Positions 326 to 44,260 of a stretch of DNA of 64,000 nt are shown here, piece by piece. The first letter of the stretch is position 1. Each line of letters opens with the position of its first letter. Location: NCBI GenBank assembly GCA_026120035.1, contig JALRME010000018.1, positions 558,001 to 622,000 on the forward strand, written 5' to 3'. A program made the translations under genes and the position numbers. The notes below the pieces were generated by a model, which worked only from the letters and a program-made list of their open reading frames with translations, did not search any database and was not told the DNA's origin. This DNA is from Coleophoma eucalyptorum. Taxonomy: Eukaryota > Ascomycota > Leotiomycetes > Helotiales > Dermateaceae.

Positions 326-3145
326 TCAGTCAATTACAATGGTTTCGGTGGTACTCGCCTCGTCAGTACTACTCAAGTCCCTGACGATAGATTCGAAAAG
401 AGCTTTAGCAAAACTAGGCGGTACAGCGTTTCCTATCTGCTTTTTAATGCCCATTCCCTTGAAGATGTGGTGTGGTGGAAATCCTTGAAGTGCAGCGTAC
501 TCCCGCAAGGTGAAGTCTCTGAAGCCGTCAGGATGGTAGTTTTGTCCTCCGTGGGTGGTAATGGCTCTACGCAGAAATTTGCTACCGTCGTAAGGAGGCT
601 TTGGGGGATCGCACCTGGCAACACTGTCCATGATTGGGTCGCGCTGCCCCGTCTGGCGACGATGGAAATTTATCTTCGCCAAAATCTCGTTGACTGTTAC
701 GAAGGGATGCAGACCATCAGATCCATCTGAATGGGTGAATGTTGGCATACGAGGTAGAGTCTCTCCGGGGCTGCTCAGATATCAACATTAATTTTGTCTT
801 TCCACGGAAGAATCGTATGAACCTACCAAGCAGCGATGATAATCAAGCGGTGGCGGCGTTGTGGGAGACCCTGGCATTGTCCGTTAACCCATACTCTAGA
901 CACAAGCGGCTACAACCTACAAGACCTTGTAATGGAAGGATAGCCCATCTGACCGAGAAGTTGAGGCTTGTGAATTGCTGGATTAGAGCGTTGAAATACT
1001 GTTGGAATCGAACCATGCATATGCCGAAAGTCTGCTCGAGTGTGACGATTCTTGGACGTACGGCCATGATTATTGCCATTACTGCGAACAGGCTCGCTGT
1101 ATTCATCTCGTCATTCTTGCCAACGACAGTGTGGGCGGGAGACCATGTTTGACAGGGAGGGGATACATGGAGGATATCAACCCTGGTAACTCTTCCAGCA
1201 TACACCTCAGATACGAACTGTTGACAGTGCATCTGGTAGCATTGAGCATATAAAAAGTTCGAATTCCAAGTGGTGCAAGCGTGCTCCCAGTGATCAAACC
1301 CCCATTTGACTTCAAGCCCTGCAAGATCAGCTCCCCGTGAAGCTCCCCCAGCTCCACAAAAGGCATCTCCGTAAGTCCATCTATTTCCTCGAGGTCTCTT
1401 CGATTTTGGAGTTTGATTTGACGACTGAAGGCATCCGGTTACCGGTATTTGTCCGGATGAACCAAGTTCGAGACAGATAACTGGAGTTCTTTCTATAGGC
1501 TCGACTGATAATCTAGACATAGTCCGATTCGTATCCTCCAAGTCGATGAAGGTCTTACGCTTCTTGCCCCCTATTTCATCTTTATCTGGAGACTGCTCTC
1601 TCTTTTGCCCCAACTTAATTATTTGCACGGATGCGGCACGAGCAGATTGTCCAGAACCTCTACGGACTGGAGGAGTTTCTTCGTCGGGGTTTGCATGAAC
1701 GAAAATACAACCTTCACTTCCTTTCTTATCGTTGCAGGCCACCTTGTTGAAACCATCAAGCCAGCATTGCCGAAGTTCTACATCTGAGATTATTCCATTT
1801 GAGACTTCGTTCTCTGTACAACGCATCACAATTCGCTCTCTCCAAATATTCTTTTGCCTGTATGAAGCAGAGTCGTATTTGCAAATATACTTCCAGCGAA
1901 CGATTAGTGGCCCACTCAAGCGTGCACTTGCTGGATTGGTGTAGACCTCAGCGTCTCTTCCATGAGGATATAGCAGGTTTGTTCTGGTGGTCTTCCGGAT
2001 TCTGACAACCTGGGAAAGTTCCACCTCCACAACACATTGATCTTCAGGTTTTCTCGGGTCGTCGAGATCAACCTCGTAGCGCTCACAGACCTCATTCAAT
2101 TTCCTCTCGAGTAAGCCATTGAGATGTCGATTTCGTTGCAGAGGGGCACCCCTTAAAGTCACCTCGCGAGTTGTTATGTGTCGGACAATGGTCTTAATAC
2201 GCAGGAAATCCTCTTCGCGATTAACTCCCTCATCCCGTAACTCAACGACCTTGCCCGACCTAAGATTCATTCCGTTGTATGTGGCTTGTTCGATACATTC
2301 GTATGGATACGAGATTGGTGGGTTGCGAGGAGGCAATACCGAAGATGCGCGTCGGTCAGGCTGATACAGAGGCTCTTCAGTGTAAACATCATCTACGCAA
2401 AGAACAGGTCTGTTTTGTCTAGATGCAAAATCCTCGTCTTCAAAAGCCTCCAAATCAATACACTCGATGTCAACGACTTCGGGATCTCGACTAGCGCTGG
2501 GCGTGGTGGATTGCTTCACCTTGCTTCTTCTCTTGACAGTTGTGACTGGTGAATCATTGCTAATTACGATTTCATCATCCGGGATAGAGCAGTATGCCAT
2601 GCGTGAAATATCATGGCTAGTAGGATCTTCATCTTCATCTTCAGTATCACTCGTCAAATCAACTGCGGTGATGACATCTTCCTGATTTTCCTTTCCTTTT
2701 CCCTTTCGTACACTTGGACTGCTATCTGGACTTGTGAATCTCCAGCAGGACCTGGCAAGTTCTTCTGGTGTCCTAGCCGGATTGTTGGGTATAGCCCGCA
2801 GTGGGGTCTGCCTCCTGCTCGAAGTGGGCGTCGAAGACGAGCTTGGAGTAGGGATATGGTGCTTGGAAGATGTTACTGGGGTAGGCATTGCGGTGGCCGT
2901 GGCTCCTGCGAGTGTATTAATAGGTGTGCAGTCGTTGGTGTGGATTCCACTCCGAGTTGTGAGGGTTGAAGTTGGACTTCCATTAGAAGTGGAATGTTGA
3001 GCAACAGAAGGGGAAGCTGCCCAACAATCAGTCATGCGATTTTGAATGGCTTTATTTACCTCATACCTTTGTATATGATCACCAAGTCGTCGTCGCTGTC
3101 TTCAATGACGATGGGTTCAATTCGCTTGGATTTGGTCTCCTCCAT
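326..3145 (-). CDS. rid: RID-like cytosine-C5 DNA methyltransferase (Masc1/RID family)
   Basis: Four exons on the minus strand: 3145-3067, 3016-921, 870-827 and 770-326, joined by introns of 50, 50 and 56 nt. The product is 887 aa. The catalytic domain has motif I (FCGAGGASRGA, about residue 579), motif IV SPPCQTW with catalytic Cys about 648, motif VI written EQT instead of the usual ENV (about 687), GLPQRRHRL across the exon 2/3 join, and the C-terminal motifs LQGFP and IGNAVPP. The N-terminal half is Ser/Thr-rich, with acidic stretches and a BAH-like region before the catalytic domain. In the family, Neurospora RID is needed for repeat-induced point mutation (RIP) and Ascobolus Masc1 for MIP; EQT is, as I recall, a family trait. 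The reading frame runs open upstream to 3328 without an ATG, so the first in-frame ATG (3145) is used; an upstream coding exon cannot be excluded. All catalytic motifs are intact. Confidence 0.88.
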
Positions 3146-31797: not shown

Positions 31798-32291
31798 GGC
31801 GTCTACTGTCCGTTTCTCGTTCCTTGTTCTTAGAAAACAAGAGGATACATGCATGCACCTCTTTGAATCTACCTCGGCGATGTCTTCGTGGTTGGACGTG
31901 GACGGGAATCTCGTCTCGGGTGGCCATCCTAGCCGAGTGCGGAAGTGCGCCCGCACTAAGTCTTGCCCTTACGGGTGACCCGATGATGCTGAAGGGAAAC
32001 TTAAAGATACAGATCGAGTACCTTACATTATGTATGTTCCAAGGAGCACTAGCATTGCCTGTCAGACCGCAGTTTCCTCACTGTTCGACACGGCTGGCAT
32101 GTTATGTTAAATCGACGCATAAATTGGATGACTGGAGCAAGCATGATGACACCAACACCGATACCAATCCCACTCCACATCTTCCCCACTTCTAGTCATT
32201 TTCAGCAACTTCTCTCCGGCGCTGTTGACATCCCTTCAAGTATGCAAATAAGGGACACGCTGCCCTCAAACAGGTCATACCTGCCCGGCTG

Positions 32292-32345
32292 GTAAGCGCA
32301 TTCACATCAACAATCCGTCTCAACACCTACTAACATCACTATCAG
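32292..32345 (+). other. Spliceosomal-type intron candidate inside the tRNA-Lys gene
   Basis: 54 nt beginning GTAAGC, with a perfect TACTAAC branch-site motif about 16 nt before the end and a terminal CAG. Length and signals match the protein-gene introns of this window. Its position, between tRNA nucleotides 9 and 10, is not the canonical 37/38 site used by tRNA splicing endonuclease. Confidence 0.7.
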
Positions 32346-32387
32346 GCACAATTGGTTAGCGCGTGGGCCTTTTAAGCCCAAGGTTGA

Positions 32388-32398
32388 GAGTTCGAGCC
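32388..32398 (+). promoter_or_regulatory. Pol III B box in tRNA-Lys
   Basis: T-arm sequence GAGTTCGAGCC matches the B-box consensus (G-[AT]-TC-[AG]-A-N-N-C core). The A box (TGGCACAATTGG in the joined tRNA) is interrupted after its first two bases by the insertion. In genomic DNA the last intron bases AG leave AGGCACAATTGG, differing from the consensus only at its first position. Confidence 0.65.
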
Positions 32399-32413
32399 TC
32401 TCGTCGGGCGATC

Positions 32414-32421
32414 TTTTTTTT
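32414..32421 (+). terminator. Pol III terminator (T8) after tRNA-Lys
   Basis: Eight consecutive T residues starting 4 nt after the discriminator base, the usual RNA polymerase III stop signal. Confidence 0.8.
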
Positions 32422-44019: not shown

Positions 44020-44138
44020 ACATACGACCATAGACTGAGGAGAATTGGGCATCCCGTCCGCTCTGCCATACACAAGCCTCAGATCGGTAGATTAGTAGTT
44101 GGGTGGGTGACCACCAGCGAATACCTACTGTTGTATGT
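44020..44138 (+). rRNA. 5S ribosomal RNA (dispersed gene)
   Basis: 119 nt from ACATACGACC to GTTGTATGT. The ends pair over 9 bp (one G-U) as helix I. Internal hallmarks of fungal 5S are present: CCCGTCCGCTCTGCC, the AAGCC loop, and GTTGGGTGGGTGACCACCAGCGAATA. It closely resembles Neurospora 5S and is followed by short T runs. It stands alone between protein genes, as dispersed 5S genes do in Pezizomycotina. Transcribed by RNA polymerase III with TFIIIA. Confidence 0.95.
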
Positions 44139-44260
44139 TTTGTTTTGCACTCTTGCTTCACTTTTGCTCCCGTGTCCTAGTTCTTCCCTAAATTTTCATA
44201 TGCCAACCAGCAATAAGCCTATCTGCCTATCTAGGCACGTACATTAGGACGCTCGCTTAA
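44139..44260 (+). repeat. 3' flank of 5S shared with the truncated copy (copy B)
   Basis: Partner of 39973-40084; the similar stretch follows directly after the 5S gene and ends near GCTCGCTTAA. Confidence 0.65.

Follow-up and report, generated by a model that had tools for sequence, protein, structure and literature searches.

The window analyzed here is a stretch of 64,000 nucleotides from the genome of Coleophoma eucalyptorum (G000:C11:558001-622000, in an assembly of 45.26 Mb and 101 contigs). It contains a tRNA-Lys(UUU) gene in two pieces, the first comprising the 5' acceptor strand with U8 and G9 and the second everything from the D arm onward, with an insertion at tRNA positions 9/10 rather than at 37/38, the canonical site of eukaryotic tRNA introns (Table 1). 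The first-pass annotation had proposed that segments 32283-32291 and 32346-32410 join across a 54-nt gap into a 74-nt tRNA-Lys(UUU), and its coordinates proved right: ARAGORN calls the joined 74-mer as tRNA-Lys(ttt), a cloverleaf with anticodon UUU and a single A-C mismatch in the D stem. The same program called no tRNA in the whole window or in a 300-nt genomic stretch around the gene, and Rfam matched only its 3' part (32345-32402, model positions 9-63, 39 bits). The insertion finishes with TACTAACATCACTATCAG, and its GT and AG ends fall exactly at the exon junction, which is fixed by an intact paralogue described below. The element GAGTTCGAGCC in the second exon is what we take to be the B box, from its consensus. 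At the Rfam gathering threshold, no group I or group II intron was found in the window; the 5S rRNA and tRNA models alone had matches. The 5S rRNA gene (44020-44139, plus strand) is uninterrupted and matches its model over the full length (74.7 bits). Among the protein-coding genes, one at 843-3098 on the minus strand encodes a protein with a C-5 cytosine DNA methylase domain, which we presume may be of the fungal RID/DIM-2-like type. Two Coleophoma species have proteins 65% and 60% identical to a HET-domain protein encoded in the window, and a quinolinate phosphoribosyltransferase is 100% identical over 88% of the query to a protein of Coleophoma crateriformis, the nearest named relative in the protein comparisons and a member of the Helotiales (Leotiomycetes).

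Table 1. Positions of the split tRNA genes, their presumed signals and the intron-bearing U6 gene (unprefixed positions are those of the window)
Feature	Position	Strand	Remarks
TATA-like box AAATAAG	32246..32252	+	-37 of Lys exon 1
Start-site-like box TCAAACA	32266..32272	+	-17 of Lys exon 1
tRNA-Lys(UUU) exon 1	32283..32291	+	GCCCGGCTG; 7-nt 5' acceptor strand plus U8 G9; same letters as C9:367761-367844
Spliceosomal-type intron of tRNA-Lys	32292..32345	+	54 nt, GTAAGC...CAG, tRNA positions 9/10
Branch-site motif TACTAAC in the tRNA-Lys intron	32328..32334	+	branch A 12 nt upstream of the final intron base
tRNA-Lys(UUU) exon 2	32346..32410	+	D arm to discriminator base, without a 37/38 intron
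Anticodon UUU of tRNA-Lys	32371..32373	+	ARAGORN run on the joined sequence
Presumed B box of tRNA-Lys	32388..32398	+	GAGTTCGAGCC, by inspection of the sequence
Pol III-type terminator, T8 run	32414..32421	+	after 3 nt of Lys trailer
Split tRNA-Leu(UAG)	G000:C9:112614-112460	-	GGGAGTC, then 57-nt GTAAGT...AACTAACAATAACTAG, then TGGCCGAGTGG...
Three split tRNA-Tyr(GUA)	C11, C13, C101		CTCTCGGT, GTAAGT...TTCTAAC...AAG, CGTCTAGTTGG; 12-nt 37/38 intron
Fourth split tRNA-Tyr (Tyr C101b)	near C101:751099	-	55-nt GTAAGG...CACAG in T stem, 51/52
U6 snRNA gene with 54-nt GT-AG intron	G000:C33, about 149,660-149,815		...ACGATAC, GTAAGT...TTCTAACATATACACAG, AGAGAAGATTAGCATGG...

Searching the genome at the DNA level with the 74-nt joined sequence led to two places, the window gene (positions 9-74) and G000:C9:367761-367844 (positions 1-74). 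The latter is an ordinary tRNA-Lys(UUU) gene whose 5' end is uninterrupted and whose 37/38 site carries a 10-nt intron; once the introns are taken out, the genes agree at 74 of 74 positions. This match makes the Lys junction exact and shows that the window copy is not decayed; decay of the 5' strand, which had been named as grounds for doubting the gene, is absent in this comparison with the same-genome paralogue. The D-stem mismatch is not a sign of decay, because the paralogue carries it too. Folded for minimum energy, the 74-mer retains its anticodon and T arms while its D arm pairs partly with the acceptor, so no clean cloverleaf results; this is no mark of decay either, because the intact paralogue has identical letters. 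A pattern for UUU tRNAs, with or without an intron, gave 30 matches (58 in the control), of which the window gene, its paralogue and a mitochondrial gene were the only ones judged by eye to be tRNA-Lys.

The flanks of the two genes are unlike, save for a leader of about 12 nt (TCAAACAGRTCA) and GATC at the 3' end, and the window copy has a different intron after G9 instead of the ordinary one at 37/38. Retroposition of a spliced pre-tRNA is a possible source of this copy, as both the absence of the 37/38 intron and the confinement of the likeness to leader, gene and first trailer bases fit such an origin; as a general rule it is contradicted by the split Leu and Tyr genes, which retain their 37/38 introns. 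The start of the intron (GGTAAGCGC) resembles the D-loop (GGTTAGCGC), and partial tandem duplication was considered as the origin of the intron and rejected, the resemblance being judged by eye to be due to chance.

Five more nuclear tRNA genes with GT-AG insertions, of 55-57 nt, were found elsewhere in the genome: one tRNA-Leu(UAG), interrupted at 7/8, and four tRNA-Tyr(GUA), three interrupted at 8/9 and one (Tyr C101b) at 51/52. Split tRNA genes thus number at least six, the Rfam genome search having scored 63 of 1762 candidates. ARAGORN recognizes a tRNA in all six joined sequences and in none of the six genomic ones, and each of the six junctions is confirmed by a paralogue that is intact at that site. 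The split tRNA-Leu was first seen as a weak Rfam match (26.6 bits against a cut-off of 29, model positions 8-63). All seven of its acceptor pairs are formed, two of them G-U, and it has an ordinary 37/38 intron as well; ARAGORN labels the joined sequence Leu(taa) with a misplaced intron, and we read it as UAG with a 19-nt intron at 37/38. An intact tRNA-Leu(UAG) at C57:243697-243801 is identical to it at 37/37 positions across the 7/8 junction and at 27/27 positions at the 3' end, and the two differ in the variable arm and the 37/38 intron.

The three tRNA-Tyr genes split at 8/9 scored 24.2 bits each in Rfam, below the cut-off of 29, and Tyr C101b went unreported at E values up to 1. ARAGORN labels the former Asn(gtt), again with the intron misplaced; placing it at 37/38 yields the anticodon GUA. 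Joined Tyr C101b is called Tyr(gta) directly. These genes verify each other: the 5' part of Tyr C101b is uninterrupted (CCCTCGGTCGTCTAGTTGG), which verifies that U8 is joined to C9 in the three 8/9 genes, and these in turn are uninterrupted at 51/52. A pattern combining CTAAC, an A box and a B box gave 16 matches (19 in the control), including the Lys and Leu cases and three tRNA-Tyr(GUA); ten others were unrelated, as judged by eye. Another pattern, AGGYNNAR...GNTTCRANYC (45 matches against 33 in the control), was mis-specified, as it misses the window gene, and by itself yielded no split tRNA; one of its matches, at C9:112431, shares sequence with the split tRNA-Leu but lies on the opposite strand. 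The remaining match of the CTAAC pattern, at C58:28937-29013, was discarded, being tRNA-like in the T arm only and having no Rfam match at E values up to 1.

A U6 snRNA gene in the same genome has an intron of the same type (Table 1); its junction was placed against the U6 consensus, and the intron lies inside the ACAGAGA box (GATAC / AGAGAAG). All seven introns, those of the six tRNA genes and of U6, begin with GTAAG and end with AG, and CTAAC lies 10-12 nt before the end in six of them (five of the six tRNA introns; Tyr C101b has TGCTAAA). The tRNA introns measure 54 nt (Lys), 57 nt (Leu), 55, 55 and 56 nt (Tyr 8/9) and 55 nt (Tyr 51/52), and their 3' ends are CAG (Lys), TAG (Leu), AAG (the three Tyr 8/9) and CAG (Tyr C101b). 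The branch site of the Lys intron agrees with the fungal consensus RCTRAY at a spacing of 6-36 nt (PMC5832005, section 3.2). Under a strict reading of that consensus, two of the six split tRNA introns fit, with TCTAAC in three others and GCTAAA in one. The weak signals, namely AAG instead of YAG together with TCTAAC in the three Tyr 8/9 introns and TGCTAAA in Tyr C101b, count against a spliceosomal reading. The first-pass annotation had likened GTAAGC, TACTAAC and CAG to the protein-gene introns of this genome, and the likeness is borne out by 13 intron candidates of the window, picked by hand from 22 that were predicted by frame continuity alone, which are 49-100 nt long (8/13 at most 57 nt) and have similar signals. 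In both length and signals the Lys intron is what is expected of a U2-type intron in this genome.

A genome search with the Lys intron, in which very common words were skipped, returned its own place only, and an introner-like element was rejected. Similarity among the introns of Pol III genes is weak: the best of ten pairs, Lys in the window against Tyr C101b, scored 10.5 (1/500 shuffles as high), and one pairing of a Pol III-gene intron with a protein-gene intron scored higher, at 12.5. We note this weak sequence similarity between the Lys intron (32292-32345) and that of Tyr C101b, which sit at different tRNA sites, as an observation that is not decisive. The insertion sites all adjoin an internal promoter box on its 5' side, the A box in the case of 7/8, 8/9 and 9/10 and the B box in that of 51/52, which leaves the cores of both boxes contiguous in the DNA; this may be why these sites tolerate introns.

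The tRNA-Tyr genes bear most directly on function. A DNA search with the joined Tyr sequence gave four matches, all of them split genes, and no uninterrupted nuclear tRNA-Tyr appeared among the limited number of candidates scored. A pattern of anticodon plus B box likewise gave four matches (nine in the control), three split Tyr genes and C13:262478, which is unrelated by eye, and again no uninterrupted nuclear tRNA-Tyr; both results apply to the candidates scored, in an assembly that possibly has gaps. A mitochondrial-type tRNA cluster on contig C56 includes a separate tRNA-Tyr. (Another contig, 153,507 bases long, carries at G000:C50:145760-145935 a tRNA-Ala(TGC) that is almost the same as that of C56 and is perhaps a mitochondrial insertion or variant.) UAU and UAC codons need a GUA tRNA. 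Because they do, and because no uninterrupted nuclear tRNA-Tyr was found, the split tRNA-Tyr genes should be spliced, used and functional. Their sequences also record selection. The three 8/9 genes are identical to each other, and Tyr C101b differs from them at 6/75 positions, which form three compensated pairs (2-71, 29-41 and 31-39); the acceptor, anticodon-stem and T-stem pairs are all formed in 4/4 genes. Since pair 2-71 joins the exons across the intron, selection has acted on the spliced RNA.

Function thus appears likely for the class of split tRNAs, thanks to the tRNA-Tyr genes. For Lys and Leu, intact tRNA-Lys(UUU) and tRNA-Leu(UAG) genes are present, and a need for the split copies is not implied. 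The first-pass annotation had named intact UUU copies elsewhere, combined with an absence of junction reads, as grounds against the window gene; the first half of this holds, since an intact copy exists on C9, and the window gene, taken by itself, may be one that the fungus can do without. Might it even be a recent dead copy, disrupted by an intron-like insertion and either unexpressed or never matured? Apart from the intact tRNA-Lys(UUU) elsewhere and the failure of standard tools to call the window gene, precedent speaks for this: in the portion of the tRNA-intron review PMC4090602 available to us, D- and T-arm insertions in eukaryotic tRNA genes are described as mostly residing in one of many synonymous genes and as supposed pseudogenes. 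However, the exons are identical to the paralogue at 74/74 positions though the flanks are unlike, and GT, branch site and AG stand exactly where the junction requires them. A rough estimate, with equal base frequencies, puts the chance of exon 1, GTRAG, RCTRAC and YAG abutting exon 2 at 4e-10. Five more genes are built alike, including all tRNA-Tyr genes found, and we therefore regard a dead copy as unlikely.

The surroundings of the split genes bear on which polymerase transcribes them. As a reference we used 50 upstream regions of ordinary nuclear tRNA genes, from which mitochondrial-type and C50 entries had been dropped and in which near-identical copies were kept. Between -50 and -22, 34/50 of these regions have an ATAA box (17.6 after shuffling), and 39/50 have a CAA box between -26 and -6 (16.4 after shuffling). 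The narrower A[AT]A[AT]AAG occurs in 8/50 (shuffled mean 1.4) and in 3/6 split genes, and boxes of the TCAAACA class in 25/50 (shuffled mean 1.7); the Lys paralogue on C9 has TCAAACAGATCA at a place like that of TCAAACA in the window gene. Upstream of exon 1, ATAA is found in five of the six split genes (-32 to -35), Tyr C101b being the exception, and CAA in all six (-12 to -17). In the five genes split in their 5' part, the stretch ahead of exon 2 has ATAA in no case and CAA in one, the window Lys gene, at -25; a second box of the TCAAACA class also lies there, inside the intron at -26 of exon 2. With the CAA box, a transcription start inside the intron is conceivable. Neither A[AT]A[AT]AAG nor ATAA was found before Lys exon 2. 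At the other end, T runs of 5-8 begin 3-12 nt after the gene in 6/6 split tRNA genes.

This layout fits Pol III transcripts that would begin before exon 1. Two further points were weighed. No T run in the seven introns exceeds 4, which Pol III would permit but which is no argument for it, because the 13 protein-gene intron candidates have no longer run either; low T content of the introns was accordingly dropped as a Pol III sign. The intron puts an extra 54 nt between the presumed start and the A box of the window gene; this counts against Pol III and could weaken transcription by it. Spliceosomal introns are normally coupled to Pol II, and the first-pass annotation had suggested that the Lys gene may be read by Pol II; its transcript would then be spliced like an mRNA. 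We do not favor this proposal and consider it improbable, slightly more so than a dead copy, given the Pol III-like boxes at ordinary spacing before exon 1 (CAA 6/6, ATAA 5/6), the T runs after every split gene (T8 for Lys) and the U6 gene with the same intron type. Least probable by a clear distance is removal by the tRNA splicing endonuclease with coincidental GT-AG ends: tRNA introns at non-canonical positions of such a kind are known in eukaryotes, as in Cyanidioschyzon and nucleomorphs (according to the accessible portion of PMC4090602), and the split Leu and Tyr genes do carry ordinary 37/38 introns, but the bulge-helix-bulge (BHB) motif was found at the intron ends of 0/7 genes, U6 included, by a simple rule applied without a positive control, 7/7 introns run GTAAG...AG, 6/7 with CTAAC 10-12 nt before the end, and U6 has the same intron type.

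The main reading of the first-pass annotation, a spliceosomal-type intron in a nuclear tRNA gene, was thus right and indeed understated, backed as it now is by an intact paralogue, five more split genes and the finding of no uninterrupted tRNA-Tyr. We think it very probable, judging from the sequence evidence, that the window gene is a functional tRNA-Lys(UUU), split after G9 by a U2-type intron as one of at least six such genes, transcribed by Pol III and spliced by the spliceosome. RNA polymerase III would start upstream of exon 1 and stop at the T run, and the 54-nt intron would be removed in the nucleus by the spliceosome, as for intron-bearing U6. The joined RNA would then enter the usual tRNA path of end trimming and CCA addition; in the Leu and Tyr genes, the ordinary 37/38 intron would also be removed by the tRNA endonuclease. 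Transcription, splicing, the order of its steps and the use of the product are what we infer from the gene structures.

Known systems offer partial parallels. U6 introns in fission yeast and other fungi (cited in the available part of PMC5832005) are likewise short GT-AG introns in a Pol III-transcribed small structured RNA; U6, however, is a component of the nuclear spliceosome, whereas tRNAs leave the nucleus for the cytoplasm and have splicing enzymes of their own. Fungal U3 snoRNA introns, 133/138 of them in the 5' half (PMC5832005), are normal spliceosomal introns with an RCTRAC branch site in a small structured RNA, but not in a tRNA. Ectopic spliceosomal introns in the rDNA of lichen fungi, among them one of 57 bp in Cladonia grayi, are removed from a non-Pol II transcript, but one made by Pol I and yielding rRNA (PMC8527467, from the part available). 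The introns removed by tRNA endonuclease do reside in tRNA genes, and archaea, red algae and nucleomorphs have some of them at non-canonical positions; they differ in being recognized by BHB structure instead of GT, branch site and AG (PMC4090602, accessible portion). In the accessible portions of two reviews, eukaryotic tRNA introns are assigned to the tRNA endonuclease (PMC4090602; PMC4390854). Words beginning with "spliceosom" are absent from the main text of PMC4090602, and the available portions of PMC6461891 and PMC11782384 do not mention tRNA genes with spliceosomal introns. In the open-access literature searched, the phrase "spliceosomal introns in tRNA" did not occur, and among the titles and abstract openings listed there was none on nuclear tRNA genes with such introns.

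Taken together, these observations suggest that some tRNAs of this fungus cannot be made without the machinery that splices its mRNAs. It is fairly likely, though less so than the reading of the window gene itself, that tRNA maturation in this fungal lineage has the spliceosome as an obligatory component, with every cytosolic tRNA-Tyr being spliced by it. If so, translation would depend on the spliceosome twice, through mRNA and through tRNA, and the spliceosome's own U6 would depend on it too. Reverse splicing into Pol III transcripts may have been the way in which the introns were gained; an insertion on the 5' side of the A or B box would leave the internal promoter readable. The split genes also explain why the tRNA finders used report no nuclear tRNA-Tyr. 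That all tRNA-Tyr genes found should need the spliceosome would break the division of labor between the endonuclease for tRNA introns and the spliceosome for mRNA introns, as it is drawn in the accessible portions of PMC4390854 and PMC4090602. It would also mean that mRNA-like splicing is open to Pol III transcripts on their way to the cytoplasm, and the before-and-after paralogues within one genome would make this fungus a natural system in which to study how tRNA genes gain introns.
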